DNA of 64,000 nucleotides, from assembly GCA_030432655.1 (NCBI GenBank), contig JAUILA010000002.1, forward strand, positions 1-64,000. Reading direction: 5' to 3'. The notes beneath the pieces were generated by a model that was not told the DNA's origin, did not search any database, and saw only the letters and a list, made by a program, of their open reading frames with translations. A program made the position numbers and the translations under genes. Within the stretch, counting starts at the first letter, position 1. Every line of letters starts with the position of its first letter. Positions 48,126 to 63,161 of this stretch are shown here, in pieces. Origin of the DNA: Bacteroidia bacterium. GTDB lineage: Bacteria; Bacteroidota; Bacteroidia; Cytophagales; Cyclobacteriaceae.

Positions 48126-48149
48126 AAAGCCGGCACAAAGGCCGGCTTT
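48126..48149. terminator. Bidirectional terminator
   Basis: A 9-bp perfect stem (AAAGCCGGC / GCCGGCTTT) with a six-base loop lies between convergent genes; A-runs and T-rich bases flank it on either side. Confidence 0.85.
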
Positions 48150-48151
48150 AG

Positions 48152-48874
48152 TTATTTCTGCTTTCTTACCATTCGAATACTGCGCCGGATATCCTTGCGC
48201 TTACTCAGCTTAGGTTTTTTTACTTCTGCCTTTTTATCAAAAGGTTTTTTCAATTCAATCTGGATCAGGCTTTTATCCTTCACATGGAACACTAAAGGCT
48301 GCCCGGGCATAACCTCTACGGTTTTCTCCGAAAAACCTTTTTTTTCAACGTTTACGGTTACCGGTCCCGGCTTTCGGCTTTTACGTTTGATCGATGAATC
48401 AGGGTAAACCACGGTGATCTTCAGGTTGGATTTATTCTTCATTTCTGTACCTGTGTATTCTCCCGGGCGAAGCAAAATCACTGAATAGAGATCATCATTA
48501 TCCAGCTGTTTTGATTCAAATTCCTTCTTCAACTTCTGATTTTTCAGAGACTTTTCGACCCTTACCTGGTAAGCGTCATCCGCCACTGAGTCATAAAACA
48601 TTACGTATCCGTTGGGGCTTACTTCAAGTTTCTGATCGCTCAGTAAAGAGCCGGTGTCTGACTTCAGTCCGGCCAGGTCAATATTGACCTGCTGATCATT
48701 GGTCTGGCTGGTGCAGTTTATTTCAAAGGTTTTGAGCAATTCTCCTTTTCTGAATATACTGCCGCTGTACGCTCCTTCTTCTTTTAACAAGTGCGCGGTG
48801 TAGGCCAGTACGGAAACTTCATCACTTCTGAATTTGGTTTTATGAATGGCCGATCTGTTTATAAAAGGTTTCAT
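48152..48874 (-). CDS. Unknown protein, third gene of an unassigned operon
   Basis: A 240-residue protein without signal peptide or membrane segment. The first 150 residues are mixed strand/helix; residues 170-215 resemble a small strand domain (PVTVNVEKKGFSEKTVEVMPGQP). The last 30 residues are highly basic (KKPKLSKRKDIRRSIRMVRKQK in part), which could bind nucleic acid, lipid head groups or an acidic partner. It lies 28 bases after the second gene of the operon and before a bidirectional terminator. I do not recognise the family. Confidence 0.6.
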   Translation of the reverse strand: MKPFINRSAIHKTKFRSDEVSVLAYTAHLLKEEGAYSGSIFRKGELLKTFEINCTSQTNDQQVNIDLAGLKSDTGSLLSDQKLEVSPNGYVMFYDSVADDAYQVRVEKSLKNQKLKKEFESKQLDNDDLYSVILLRPGEYTGTEMKNKSNLKITVVYPDSSIKRKSRKPGPVTVNVEKKGFSEKTVEVMPGQPLVFHVKDKSLIQIELKKPFDKKAEVKKPKLSKRKDIRRSIRMVRKQK

Positions 48875-48902
48875 TTCTTTTGCATTTTAATTAGAACTCA
48901 TT

Positions 48903-49817
48903 TCACCCGATGTCACCGGAAATAATCAATTCGGTCTCATCAATGTCAACATCCACGTTCAATACCGGAACAAGAACCGGTATCTGACCGGGAGCCGGGG
49001 CAAGTATGGGATAAGGATCCTCAAATTTGAAGATCGGGAAGTTTTTGGCAAGCTCATCTGCCACCCAGGTCAGTATGAAATCAAACAGACCGAAGCTGAC
49101 ACCAAGAAGATCCGATAACCACTCATCGATATCATCCACAATATCCAGCAGGCCGCGGACTACATCCACAATACCCCCCAGCAACCAGGATAAGGCATCG
49201 CGTACCCATCCGGGCAGCCAGCCCAGTAAGCCGTCGATGGCAAATTCAATGGCCGAGTCCAGGATATTACCAACCGTATCTGAAATATCAATAAGGTCAA
49301 AATCTATCCAGATTGGATCCAGGAAAAATTGCCATTCGTGCTGGTTCCCCGAAAAGAATGCCTGGTGGTCACTCATGCCGGCATGTGCCGGGTTGGTGAA
49401 ATACGATGCGTCAATATCAAATGCCCCGGAAATTTCACTGGTAATAATACCACTCAGATCAAGCGGAATAGTAATGTCGGGGTTAGCGGAGAAAATGCAT
49501 ATTTCCGGCAGGCGTACCCAGCAGCCACCAAACGGTGACGGAATAATACACCAGCCTCCAACACAGATTTCCGGAAGATCAATGCCAAGGGTCAGGGTGA
49601 GGGGGTCGATAACCACATCGAGCTCACTGATATGAACTTCGTCCGGAGAATCCTTCAAATCAATGGAACCTCCTTCAAGCCGGATGCCGGCGCTGTAGGA
49701 AGCCGTAAACGGACCAAACGAACCGGAATCAGAAGTGGATACGGCCAGACTGTCTCGCAAATTCTCAAACAAGCCTTTGAATGCTTTTTCGGATGCTGCT
49801 AAATTAATATGTGCCAT
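48903..49817 (-). CDS. Unknown protein with amphipathic-helix core, second gene of an unassigned operon
   Basis: A 304-residue acidic protein without signal peptide. Residues 1-25 form an amphipathic helix. Residues 30-150 are strand-rich with two Cys/Trp/Pro motifs (LPEICVGGWCIIPSPFGGC, then RLPEICIF). Residues 185-255 are a dense run of Trp/Leu/Ile-rich amphipathic helices (GLLGWLPGWVRDALSWLLGG, then DIDEWLSDLLG). It ends with a strand (DETELIISGDIG). The layout resembles lipid-binding or membrane-active proteins, but I cannot name a family. It follows the first gene by 6 bases. Confidence 0.6.
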   Translation of the reverse strand: MAHINLAASEKAFKGLFENLRDSLAVSTSDSGSFGPFTASYSAGIRLEGGSIDLKDSPDEVHISELDVVIDPLTLTLGIDLPEICVGGWCIIPSPFGGCWVRLPEICIFSANPDITIPLDLSGIITSEISGAFDIDASYFTNPAHAGMSDHQAFFSGNQHEWQFFLDPIWIDFDLIDISDTVGNILDSAIEFAIDGLLGWLPGWVRDALSWLLGGIVDVVRGLLDIVDDIDEWLSDLLGVSFGLFDFILTWVADELAKNFPIFKFEDPYPILAPAPGQIPVLVPVLNVDVDIDETELIISGDIG

Positions 49818-49823
49818 GACGTA

Positions 49824-50639
49824 TCAGATTAGGTTTAAAAATGCATTTAACTGGTTGTTGCTCACGGAGGGGTTGAATGGGATGTCCCCGGTCACCGGAG
49901 CAGGTGCGATCGTGATGAAATCATTCATACTGAACACAAGGTCGTTCAGGGCAATCCGTACCTTGGGCAGAATTCCAAGACGAAGTGATGTGCTTATGTA
50001 ACATTCCAGGGAATTTTCAAGTCCGTTCGGGAGAATGTCCACAAGCTCCAGTCCGTCCAGACGAAGCTGAATAAAACCATTGCTTCGGATGACCTGTAGT
50101 GTCGCATACAATTCAAGGCAGAAACATTCAACCTTTCTGGATGGAATTGGTTTGGTTGGAGGTTCCGGGTCCGGCCGGTCCTTGCCCGTTGGGTCCTGGG
50201 GAATGTCGATCAGTTCATCGATCAGTTTATCAGTAATTTCCCTTTCCGGACACGATACCCCGCCACAGACCTTCCCTTTCAGGGCAATCCGTTGCTCATT
50301 GAGCGGCGGATTCAGTTCCGTAGGTAGTGTAATGAGGTTTCCCGGGTGGAAATCAACCAGGAATTCCGTTAGCTGAAACGTATAACTCAATCCATACGGG
50401 CCGGTATATCCGATTATCGGCATGTAAGGAAGAACAGTGACCAGCGGATTATTAAACTCCTGCACCGCCAGATGGAATTCGATCTTGCTGCAGAGTCGCG
50501 GTTCGTATTTCGGGCTTGCCAGGTCCTGGGTCGAATAATTAAACAGGGATGGCCGTTGGGTCATTATGTGCCTGATAATATGGTTAAACCCATCTTCGTG
50601 AAAGCTGGCAAACAAGTCAGAATGATCGGTTAGTGGCAT
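49824..50639 (-). CDS. Unknown protein, first gene of an unassigned operon
   Basis: A 271-residue protein without signal peptide. It begins with an amphipathic helix (DLFASFHEDGFNHIIRHI), followed by strand-rich sequence, a Pro/Asp-rich linker (about residues 145-170) and two cysteine-bearing pieces (KVCGGVSC and VECFCLELYA). It ends PSVSNNQLNAFLNLI, which resembles in pattern the tail of the next gene's product. Both N-termini and C-termini of these two proteins are thus alike in style, suggesting related folds or a shared assembly. Family not recognised. Confidence 0.6.
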   Translation of the reverse strand: MPLTDHSDLFASFHEDGFNHIIRHIMTQRPSLFNYSTQDLASPKYEPRLCSKIEFHLAVQEFNNPLVTVLPYMPIIGYTGPYGLSYTFQLTEFLVDFHPGNLITLPTELNPPLNEQRIALKGKVCGGVSCPEREITDKLIDELIDIPQDPTGKDRPDPEPPTKPIPSRKVECFCLELYATLQVIRSNGFIQLRLDGLELVDILPNGLENSLECYISTSLRLGILPKVRIALNDLVFSMNDFITIAPAPVTGDIPFNPSVSNNQLNAFLNLI

Positions 50640-54988: not shown

Positions 54989-56083
54989 TCAATTTTTTAA
55001 TGGAGAAAGATGTTCGTGAACTATTTTCCATTCACCATTTATTTTAACGAATAACAAAGTAATTAGATTATTGACTCTAATTTCTCCATACTCCTTATGA
55101 TCCAATATAAAATCAGAGGTAAAGGTTACATTAGCTACATTCCCAAAAAATACAGCAACTTTCAAAGTCCCTTCGACAGCGGCAAATTGAATAATTCCAT
55201 TCTCTTTAATATCTTCACCAAATAGCTGACGTTCATTATGTTCGTTACCCTCACTATCGAAAGATTCTCCTCCATTGAATTCAACAAACTTATCTCCATA
55301 GGCATGAAAGGAGATTAGTTTATCCATATGTTTGCTATCATAGCCTTTTCCAGCTCCATCAGTTATAGTTTGTCCAATGGCCGCAAAAGTCTCTAAGACC
55401 TCTGCTTGTGCTTGCGGATACTCCTGGTTAATTGGAGATGAACCATTGGCAGCGCTTCTGGATAAAGTTGAACTTTTAGAAGACGATATTGATTCTTCAG
55501 CTACAGGAGAATGATGTTCGTGAACCATTTTCCAATCACCATTTACTTTAACAAATAACAAAGTGATTAGATTATTGACTCTAATTTCTCCATAGACTTT
55601 ATGATCCAATATAAAATCTGAGATAAAGGTTACATTAGCTACATTCCCAAAATATACAGCAACTTTCAAAGTCCCTTCGACCGTGGCAAATTGAATAATT
55701 CCATTTTCTTTAATGTCTTCACCAAATAGCTGACGTTCATTATGTTCGTTACCCTCACTATCGAAAGATTCTCCTCCATTGAACTCAACAAACTTATCTC
55801 CATAGGCATGAAAAGAGATAAGCTGATCCATAAAGGCGCTATAATATCCTTGTCCAGCTCCATCAGATATAGTTTGTCCGATGGCCGCAAAAGTCTCTAA
55901 GACCTCTGCTTGTGCTTGCAGATACTCCTGGTTAATTGGAGATGAACCATTGGCAGCGGTACTGGATAAAGCTAAACGTTCAGAAGAAAATACTGATTCT
56001 TCAACATTCTCTTCATTATCTAAACACCCAGATAATAGGAAAAAGGATGTTAGAATTACTGTTAATAGTGGTTTTGTTTTCAT
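54989..56083 (-). CDS. Lipoprotein of two tandem NTF2/SnoaL-like domains
   Basis: A 364-residue lipoprotein (lipobox LLSGC at about residue 20) containing two nearly identical halves, residues 27-195 and 195-364. Each has the NTF2-like pattern: a long first helix (QAQAEVLETFAAIGQTI), FVEFNGGESFDSEGNEHNER, then strands ending WKMVHEHHSP or WKIVHEHLSP. The repeat is also close at DNA level with a 504-base period, so it arose recently. The strand pattern is like SnoaL/DUF4440 proteins. Function unknown. Composition is AT-rich, like the sensor gene upstream of it. Confidence 0.75.
   Translation of the reverse strand: MKTKPLLTVILTSFFLLSGCLDNEENVEESVFSSERLALSSTAANGSSPINQEYLQAQAEVLETFAAIGQTISDGAGQGYYSAFMDQLISFHAYGDKFVEFNGGESFDSEGNEHNERQLFGEDIKENGIIQFATVEGTLKVAVYFGNVANVTFISDFILDHKVYGEIRVNNLITLLFVKVNGDWKMVHEHHSPVAEESISSSKSSTLSRSAANGSSPINQEYPQAQAEVLETFAAIGQTITDGAGKGYDSKHMDKLISFHAYGDKFVEFNGGESFDSEGNEHNERQLFGEDIKENGIIQFAAVEGTLKVAVFFGNVANVTFTSDFILDHKEYGEIRVNNLITLLFVKINGEWKIVHEHLSPLKN
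54997..56004. repeat. Tandem duplication, two 504-bp copies
   Basis: Copy 1 (54997-55500) and copy 2 (55501-56004) align with a constant offset of 504 bases and few substitutions. For example TGTTCGTGAA occurs at 55011 and 55515, and AACCATTGGCAGC at 55441 and 55945. The unit is 168 codons, so the duplication kept the reading frame and doubled the domain. Confidence 0.88.
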
Positions 56084-61300: not shown

Positions 61301-61825
61301 ATGTTGGAGAAAACCTTCTTTTACATTTTATCTGCTACACTACTCATCTCATGTAATAAGATTAAAGAAAAAAGTGAGAGTCTGATAGTGAAAATTGCGG
61401 ATGATTTAAATGAACCTATTGTAGAAGAAAAGATAATTACAGAATTGTATCCTGAGCTAGGGGAAGAGCAATATGAATTCCAGAATATAAATGGGATTCA
61501 ACTTCAATATTTAGCGGGGTTCTATGAATACTATTTTAAATACTCTTGTGATATAAAATTAGTTTCTGATTTCATATGTCATATGATGGTTGAGTCGTTC
61601 AATGAAGTCGAGCCAGATTCATCTTGTACATTGACTACAACACCTACACTAATTGAGACTAACTTAACAAGCCAGACTCTCGAAGAATTAAGTTTCTTTT
61701 TTGAGTATGAGGATCTTGAACAATATGAAATTCTTGAAACAACAAAGACACCATTTAGACATACATTAATTATCGATAAGAAATCTCAAATTATTTATCA
61801 CAGAATTGAGGAGTTTAAAGAGTAA
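61301..61825 (+). CDS. Lipoprotein, unknown
   Basis: A 174-residue protein with lipobox LLISC at residue 18 and an acidic mature part rich in Glu. Three further cysteines lie at about residues 81, 91 and 106. No family is recognised. AT-rich, like the sensor gene, and unlike the integrase that follows at 61830 with only a 4-base gap. Confidence 0.65.
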   Translation: MLEKTFFYILSATLLISCNKIKEKSESLIVKIADDLNEPIVEEKIITELYPELGEEQYEFQNINGIQLQYLAGFYEYYFKYSCDIKLVSDFICHMMVESFNEVEPDSSCTLTTTPTLIETNLTSQTLEELSFFFEYEDLEQYEILETTKTPFRHTLIIDKKSQIIYHRIEEFKE

Positions 61826-61829
61826 TGAT

Positions 61830-63161
61830 ATGAAATGTTCCTTCTACCTCGACCGACCCTACAATCCGGAAATAGATTCGGAGCAATTGAAAAAAGAAAT
61901 TACAAGAAGCCGGTCGAATGGAGGGAAGCTGAATCCGAAGTTTTATAATCCCAGGCCCACCTCAATCTATCTATTCTTCACTCCGGATAAACGGACCCGC
62001 ATGAAATTCCGTACCTCAATTAAAATCCACCCGAAATACTGGGATTTTAAATTGTCCACGATTAAACCAGCTGCCCCAGCTGCCCTGGAATTAAATCATG
62101 AGCTCAATGTGTTAGCAGATGATGTTCTGAAGCAGGCTTCCAGGCTTCGGGATGAAAAGGAGATGGTCACCCGGGCGGAATACAAGGACCTTGTGAATCG
62201 TATAATCAACAAGAACGAGGTGCCGGCCAACCAGGAGAAATTGTCAGTTCACGTCAATCAGTTCATGCGTTTCAAATACCGGCAGTCCACCGAAGGAACG
62301 ATGAAGGAATACCGGACGGTCTTCAGTGCTTTGTCAGACTACCAGAAGAAATTCGGATTGAACATGACTCTGATGGATTTCAACCGGGAGTTCTTTCATA
62401 AGTATGAAGAATTCCTGAGCAAGCGAAAGGTAAATAAAAAGAATGGCGAAATCGGATTGCTTAATGATACGGTAGCTAAATACATTTCCAGTCTGAAGGT
62501 ATTTCTTTCCTGGTCACATCGGGAAGGACATGCAGTGCATCCCGATGCGCTTCGTCCGCATAAGTCTGCCTATAAGAAAAAGCAGTACAATGAAATTGTA
62601 GTGCTTTCGGAGGAAGAGGTTCAGCGGATCCTGGAATACGATTTCGGCTCACGGACATATCTTGACCGTGTCCGGGATTTATTTTGCTTTGCCTGTTTCA
62701 CCGGACAGCGCTATTCGGATATCATGCGATTTGACAAACTGGACTTCAAGGATAACAAGTGGGCGTTTCTTTCTGCGAAATCCAAAAAGAAAGTAACAGT
62801 CCCATTCAATGGCTTTATCGCCCAGGCATTACCGATCCTGGAGAAGTATGATTATGAGCTGCCCAAGATCTCCAATCAGAAGTTCAATGCCTACCTGAAA
62901 GAAATTGGTAAGATTGTTGGTATAGATGAACCGGTGAAGATCACCCGGTTTCGCGGATTGAACGAAGTGGTCATCGAACGACCCAAATACAAGTTCATGA
63001 GCAGTCACATGGGCCGGCGAACATTAGTGACCATTCTCCTGTCAAAAGGAGTGCCTATTACACTGGTGCAGAAGATTACACAGCATTCGGATATCCGGAC
63101 GCTGATGAAGTATGAATCTGCCAATACGGATCAGTTGATTGACGCCCTGGATAAACTGTAA
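61830..63161 (+). CDS. Tyrosine recombinase (phage/conjugative-transposon type integrase)
   Basis: A 443-residue integrase with an Arm-type N-terminal domain (SIYLFFTPDKRTRMKFRTSIK), a core-binding domain at about 130-230 and a catalytic domain from 250. The catalytic set is complete: Arg294 in FTGQRYSD, the beta-strand Lys in SAKSKKKVTV, His393 and Arg396 in SSHMGRRT, His419 in TQHSD and the nucleophile Tyr428 in MKYESA. It belongs with integrases of Bacteroidota mobile islands. The start at 61830 is used; an ATG at 61806 overlaps the lipoprotein gene. It probably moved the AT-rich block or the genes to its right. Confidence 0.92.
   Translation: MKCSFYLDRPYNPEIDSEQLKKEITRSRSNGGKLNPKFYNPRPTSIYLFFTPDKRTRMKFRTSIKIHPKYWDFKLSTIKPAAPAALELNHELNVLADDVLKQASRLRDEKEMVTRAEYKDLVNRIINKNEVPANQEKLSVHVNQFMRFKYRQSTEGTMKEYRTVFSALSDYQKKFGLNMTLMDFNREFFHKYEEFLSKRKVNKKNGEIGLLNDTVAKYISSLKVFLSWSHREGHAVHPDALRPHKSAYKKKQYNEIVVLSEEEVQRILEYDFGSRTYLDRVRDLFCFACFTGQRYSDIMRFDKLDFKDNKWAFLSAKSKKKVTVPFNGFIAQALPILEKYDYELPKISNQKFNAYLKEIGKIVGIDEPVKITRFRGLNEVVIERPKYKFMSSHMGRRTLVTILLSKGVPITLVQKITQHSDIRTLMKYESANTDQLIDALDKL

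Follow-up and report, generated by a model that had tools for sequence, protein, structure and literature searches.

The window analysed here is a stretch of 64,000 nucleotides from a Bacteroidia bacterium of the family Cyclobacteriaceae (contig JAUILA010000002.1). The subject of this communication is an operon of three genes in this window, termed P1, P2 and P3, which are arranged in tandem on the minus strand. P1 and P2 are separated by 6 bases (49818-49823), P2 and P3 by 28 bases (48875-48902). A stem follows directly after the P3 stop codon (read from 48149 to 48126) and is the longest stem of our terminator scan. The scan by itself is weak: the region has six terminator-like sites, and shuffled sequence has 3.2 on average. 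The original prediction, made from the letters of this DNA alone, had described a three-gene operon with exactly these gaps and a closing terminator, and all of this proved correct. The features are collected in Table 1.

Table 1. Features of the P1-P2-P3 operon, in coordinates of the window
Feature	Position	Strand	Description
P1	49824..50639	minus	Open reading frame (ORF), 271 amino acids (aa); no signal peptide seen; TULIP-like, weakly predicted
P2	48903..49817	minus	ORF, 304 aa; no signal peptide seen; TULIP fold predicted
P3	48152..48874	minus	ORF, 240 aa; putative accessory protein; no Pfam family above cut-off
Intrinsic terminator closing the operon	48126..48149	minus	9-pair stem, 6 GC pairs, T-rich tail
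P1 N-terminal 40 residues, motif SDLF..HEDG.N...H...QRPSLFNY	50520..50639	minus	Mean pairwise identity 0.56, top block of P1
P2 cysteine segment, residues 85-107	49497..49565	minus	Four or six Cys in 13/13 relatives
P2 hydrophobic amphipathic helical stretch, residues 178-259	49041..49286	minus	Helices in the model; residues 222-249 at a predicted local distance difference test score (pLDDT) <50
P3 basic C-terminal tail	48155..48274	minus	Net charge +13 in the last 40 residues

The three proteins could not be assigned to any known family. P1, P2 and P3 had no match at a meaningful score in Pfam, NCBIfam, PHROGs or PADLOC, and nine members of each of the three protein families had no meaningful match in Pfam. 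Sequence searches of the Protein Data Bank (PDB) with the P1 profile, the P3 profile or the P2 sequence returned no matches; the P2 profile matched a single phage fibre at an E value of 0.3, which is chance level. By these comparisons P1-P2-P3 is a family without a name, in agreement with the original prediction, which was unable to name any of the three. A clear match to an unrelated known family emerged neither in the profile searches nor in the fold searches reported below.

Relatives of the operon are present in bacteria and in archaea, as judged from a sample of genomes. A search with P2 led to a contig of an anaerobic methanotrophic (ANME-2) archaeon and to a contig of a metagenome-assembled Bacteroidetes genome, RBC076 (contigs L002 and L003), both of which have the three genes in the window's order. 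Within the family of the window it led to genomes of two kinds: in two the genes are separate, in three they are fused. Profiles of P1 added a phage contig, two archaea whose gene content looks haloarchaeal, and another two from the ANME-2 class. The carriers thus comprise 12 genomes, that of the window included, and one phage contig: six genomes of the window's bacterial family, RBC076, the ANME-2 archaeon, the two probable haloarchaea, the two archaea of the ANME-2 class, and the phage. The contigs of the ANME-2 archaeon and of archaeon G769 are taken as archaeal because a gene for eIF2-gamma is located near the operon on the former and a TFIIB gene on the latter. Four weak P2 matches (L009-L012, E values 0.003-0.005) were dropped; they matched 47-48 query residues, and at L010, the one of these loci that was read, the match site falls within an unrelated ORF of 965 aa on the opposite strand.

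The order P1-P2-P3 is kept in 11 of the 13 carriers. In a test of 50 genomes P3 was found in all ten carriers and in none of the 40 non-carriers. Eight of these ten carriers had supplied rows to the P3 profile, hence the informative half is the 0/40. P3 was not found in two archaea, G1263 (no match) and G1237 (a match at an E value of 0.157 elsewhere only). The distance matrices of P1, P2 and P3 from ten carriers correlate (r 0.73, 0.65 and 0.78), with 0 of 5000 permutations as high. Permutation of taxon labels keeps shared ancestry, and the correlation therefore speaks for co-inheritance rather than for contact. In 12/12 comparisons non-silent changes are less frequent than silent ones (pN 0.14-0.47, pS 0.54-0.86). 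Silent sites are saturated in nine of these; the other three have a dN/dS of 0.34-0.43. The three genes are conserved together.

That P1 and P2 act together is best supported by their fusion: in five of the 13 carriers they constitute one ORF. These are the three genomes found of one genus, g13, with 634-635 aa, and two archaea, G1263 with 623 aa and G1237 with 547 aa as read. In G1237 an IS4/5-type transposase gene (L045:9611-10429) cuts the P2 end of the fused gene. The linkers of bacterial and archaeal fusions look similar and follow the pattern ESPE..TRT..R.R.G, which is clear in G1263 and weaker in G1237. With the order of the genes, the restriction of P3 to carriers and this fusion, the view of the operon as a self-contained unit is supported.

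The absence of a signal peptide, noted at the outset for P1 and P2, is also seen in their relatives. We used a crude measure, the highest Kyte-Doolittle mean over 15 residues within the first 40 residues of ten relatives. It ranges from -0.18 to 0.55 for P1, from 0.33 to 1.33 for P2 and from 0.2 to 1.21 for P3, i.e., no hydrophobic N-terminus is apparent. The cysteine motifs of P1 and P2 likewise are a property of the family. Six positions of P1 are Cys in 13/13 relatives. The cysteine segment of P2 contains four Cys in 12/13 relatives and six in G1237, always an even number; residue 90 is Cys in 13/13, residues 85 and 107 in 12/13. In the fused protein of archaeon G1263 Ser occupies both position 85 and position 107; its sister G1237 has Cys at both. 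This is a single hint that these two Cys pair.

Other traits seen in the window are shared in part. The best-conserved blocks of P2 are residues 61-110 and 178-240, the latter at 0.49-0.51. The helical stretch at residues 178-259 reaches a maximal 19-residue hydropathy of 0.95-2.18 across 13 rows; membrane contact is therefore possible and a transmembrane helix is not implied. Originally this stretch was described as a Trp-rich amphipathic run. Its hydrophobic amphipathic character is general, the richness in Trp is most pronounced in the window copy alone (five Trp vs one to four in the other 12 rows). Similarly, the last 40 residues of P3 form a strongly basic tail in the family of the window and in the phage copy (net charge +8 to +15); in RBC076 the tail is weak (+3), and the archaeal copies do not retain it (-2 to +2). 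In the genomes G090 and G583 the P3 profile match crosses one in-frame stop each, and the tail is shorter. The matching terminal strands described for P1 and P2 were borne out in part: in the models P2 ends in a strand and P1 in a helix, the latter at a pLDDT of about 37.

What is the fold of P1 and P2? The P2 model was aligned by VIA-align with the best 1000 chains from Foldseek, 997 of which could be aligned. The top 11 rows are all TULIP proteins, with Z from 5.9 to 9.6 and a root-mean-square deviation (rmsd) of 4.5-8.2. YceB leads (Z 9.6, 151 residues, rmsd 4.6); LBP (8.2), BPI (8.0 and 7.4), P47 (8.0), CETP (7.3) and chains of OrfX2/OrfX3 (5.9-7.3) are in the same group. The first unrelated row is an RNA polymerase at Z 5.5; in the lower rows JHBP, Takeout, Der f 7, SMP and SPLUNC1 are mixed with unrelated chains. 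In Foldseek itself ranks 2 and 3 for P2 go to a TULIP-type mite allergen and to OrfX2. For P1 the four best Foldseek rows are BPIFA1/SPLUNC1 (best E value 0.015, probability 0.89) and CETP is seventh. The chains named here we take to be TULIP proteins, partly on the authority of papers. Models that have no clear match often reach a Z of 7 to 8; the TULIP reading of P2 is persuasive because the leading VIA-align rows are uniform, not because Z is high. As a yardstick, a comparison of YceB with CETP/BPI has a DALI Z of 9.2 over 153 residues (PMC5507252). The TULIP-like fold, one idea of the original prediction, can be upheld for P2 as a prediction from a low-confidence model, and is only suggested for P1.

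Several observations weigh against this assignment. Both models are weak, being built from four-sequence alignments, with a pLDDT of 59.1 and a predicted TM-score (pTM) of 0.54 for P1, and 59.4 and 0.40 for the AlphaFold2 model of P2. Foldseek found nothing for P2 at an E value below 0.19, ranked a viral spike first and gave TM-scores of at most 0.18 among the 50 rows shown; a fold search of BFVD with P2 had no E value below 0.001 (best 0.077). The best Foldseek rows of P1 superpose badly (TM-score 0.21, rmsd about 19). In VIA-align P1 attains a best Z of 4.8 (JHBP) and unrelated rows attain 4.5-4.6, i.e., TULIP proteins are not separated. A profile comparison of P1 with P2 aligned 28 columns at the N-terminal helix only, at a probability of 2.6%. 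At E values up to 1, nine P1 and nine P2 members matched no TULIP family of Pfam, neither the P47 family, which Pfam includes (PMC6791001), nor DUF4403, DUF2140 or DUF2993. The YceB/DUF1439 family of Pfam was not matched either, and P2 lacks a hydrophobic N-terminus. No TULIP chain was matched in the PDB sequence searches. P1 and P2 might accordingly possess another helix-plus-sheet fold and a role unrelated to lipids, e.g., the handling of metal by the Cys clusters, the conservation of which fits such a role. We consider this improbable. Two neighbours without detectable full-length similarity, modelled separately, are both led by TULIP matches.

Our preferred reading, to which we assign a probability of roughly 0.55, is that P1 and P2 constitute a leaderless two-TULIP carrier of a hydrophobic ligand, either heterodimeric or fused, with P3 as an accessory, and that the three genes are a laterally mobile module. 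The P1-P2 heterodimer would correspond to a two-TULIP protein split into two chains. The fused P1-P2 counts in favour; the chains of BPI/CETP and P47/OrfX2 have a comparable two-domain layout. Tubular cavities in P1 and P2 would hold the ligand, a lipid or a lipid-like compound, and the long hydrophobic helical stretch of P2 would likely be a membrane-touching or lid element. The conserved Cys, six in P1 and four or six in P2, may lock both proteins by disulfides or metal. P3 may dock on the P1-P2 pair; in bacteria its basic tail may instead bind anionic surfaces. The fused archaeal form lacks P3.

How does such a carrier relate to known TULIP systems? The prokaryotic members named in the papers cited here, among them P47/OrfX, YceB, DUF4403, DUF2140 and DUF2993, are bacterial (PMC6791001, PMC5507252, PMC7020563, PMC13030710). 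YceB (DUF1439), which the P2 model matches best in structure, is lipid-anchored after a short spacer (PMC6791001, PMC5507252). In contrast, no lipoprotein signal is seen in P2, which is longer (304 vs 186 residues), contains the extended helical stretch and is encoded together with P1 and P3. DUF4403, DUF2140 and DUF2993 (PMC6791001) and the TULIP version of ClaspCone-1, for which a periplasmic action was proposed (PMC12419801), are predicted prokaryotic TULIP members as well, yet the Pfam searches with P1 and P2 members connect them to neither protein. The two-TULIP architecture of BPI, LBP and CETP (Z 7.3-8.2 with the P2 model) resembles the P1-P2 fusion; these, however, are eukaryotic extracellular proteins with about 10% identity over the match. 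The beta-tulip core of a phage decoration protein reported in 2024 for extreme viruses (PMC10970483) was set aside; by its description it does not belong to the TULIP superfamily. On these sequence comparisons the module is best read as lying outside the TULIP families checked.

P47, OrfX2 and OrfX3 share several features with P1-P2-P3: a TULIP-type fold, judged by the P2 model, a multi-gene cluster scattered across phyla, and two TULIP domains per chain as proposed for the fused P1-P2. OrfX1, OrfX2 and P47 bind lipids in vitro, and OrfX/P47 are encoded in clusters linked to insecticidal-toxin genes, some of them in Gram-negative bacteria (PMC7020563). By analogy the leaderless pair might be freed by lysis or phage induction and, outside the cell, carry or protect a leaderless enzyme released with it; an oxidising place of this kind would suit Cys-rich proteins. 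Two loci speak for this. In G124 the gene that begins 21 bases behind P3 (L024:11790-12905) encodes an astacin/matrixin-type metalloprotease in which no signal peptide is visible. On the phage contig, where the operon is inside the packaging region, P3 is followed by a gene for a 329-aa protein, again without a visible signal peptide, with a weak, sub-cut-off match to Big_1 (L013:5319-6308) and no match among PDB sequences. It is because of these two genes that a released accessory role is entertained here. Still, we regard it as unlikely. A leaderless gene directly behind P3 exists in just these 2/13 loci. The peptidases which follow P3 on the same strand in two g13 copies, an S9 peptidase in G012 (L026:11484-14312) and a trypsin-like protease with a PDZ domain in G090 (L027:6951-8444), look exported and differ in family. 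In G133 the matching site holds a gene on the other strand. In the window the terminator and a convergent gene, coding for an ADP-ribosylglycohydrolase family protein, are behind P3. Neither a toxin-family neighbour nor a recurring fourth gene was recognised in the loci read, mostly by eye and with Pfam scans of some neighbours. Finally, P1 and P2 differ from P47/OrfX by their conserved Cys, by the absence of a sequence match and by their presence in archaea, and P3 has no known counterpart there.

Other neighbours may be mentioned. Upstream of the operon in the window is a divergent gene for an AhpC/TSA-type, thioredoxin-like protein. In G089 a pair of C39-peptidase proteins, of which one has a VKOR domain, is encoded about 1.4 kb behind the operon (L023:5027-7268), an arrangement which resembles loci for peptide export or maturation.

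The phage contig is the one contig in IMG/VR with the operon. Here it is on the opposite strand between the genes for terminase (gpA ATPase and nuclease) and a lambda-type portal protein. The terminase large subunit is split over two ORFs, which may mean a decayed prophage or an error in the sequence. In archaeon G1051 the operon is near Cdc6-type and ParA-type genes. These two settings and the sparse distribution would agree with a prophage- and plasmid-borne moron which perturbs membranes on infection, directed against phages or between them, but this is very unlikely considering that eight proteins (three from the window, three from the phage copy and two from flanking genes) had no PADLOC match at E values up to 0.1, that no defence genes were noticed by eye next to the operon in the loci read, and that P1 and P2 queries had no match at E values up to 0.01 in 50,697 phage records, nor in 72,556 plasmid records. 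The idea of a cargo of extracellular contractile injection systems, which arose from the leaderless proteins and the distribution over bacteria and archaea, was rejected; the single marker Pvc16_N was not commoner in carriers (2/10) than in the non-carriers (15/40), which had been chosen by hand from listed genomes and not at random.

The case for mobility of the putative two-TULIP carrier comes from its distribution. P1/P2 matches were obtained in 6/390 genomes of the window's family and in 1/395 across its phylum, this being the window's own genome. In the phylum of the ANME-2 archaeon the count is 2/246, in its class 3/149, in the order of G769 2/195 and in that of RBC076 1/45; each count includes its centre genome, and the samples overlap. 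Lateral spread of the module is likely because so few genomes of the family carry it. Within genus g13 two copies share their flanks and the third has different ones, as judged by eye. Trees do not reject a single archaeal clade (approximately unbiased test, p 0.355) or a single clade of the three ANME-2-class archaea (p 0.345); for the window's own family a single clade is rejected at the margin (p 0.048). Support for a grouping of the fused forms is 59/57 only, and in an earlier ten-taxon tree the three archaea then known grouped at 67%. The trees fix neither direction nor number of the cross-domain transfers, and a lateral direction is what we infer.

Elsewhere in the window, the GC content drops from about 46% to 33-38% between 54000 and 60000, across a SnoaL-like gene and the gene of a 1312-aa hybrid two-component regulator. 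This region looks like an acquired island because of the fall in GC and the phage-type integrase gene after it (61806-63161). A 364-aa lipoprotein-like protein (54989-56083) consists of two nearly identical tandem SnoaL-like domains, the product of a recent internal duplication. A match to a Por secretion tail scored just below the cut-off.

In the open-access literature, as far as it was searched, we found no archaeal TULIP protein, which does not establish its absence from print. Tentatively, and with more doubt than for the carrier as such, P1-P2-P3 may represent an undescribed two-protein TULIP system of bacteria, archaea (of a methane-cycling class and probable haloarchaea) and phage. Its operon and fused forms would have spread between the domains of life as a leaderless, soluble lipid carrier suited to cells with ester or ether lipids, perhaps released together with leaderless enzymes. 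If true, a leaderless, operon-encoded TULIP pair which includes archaea would widen the range of the fold. It would pose the question of what one and the same carrier binds in bacteria and in archaea, the membrane lipids of which differ. And it would offer a small, soluble and expressible test case for the handling of ligands by paired TULIP domains.

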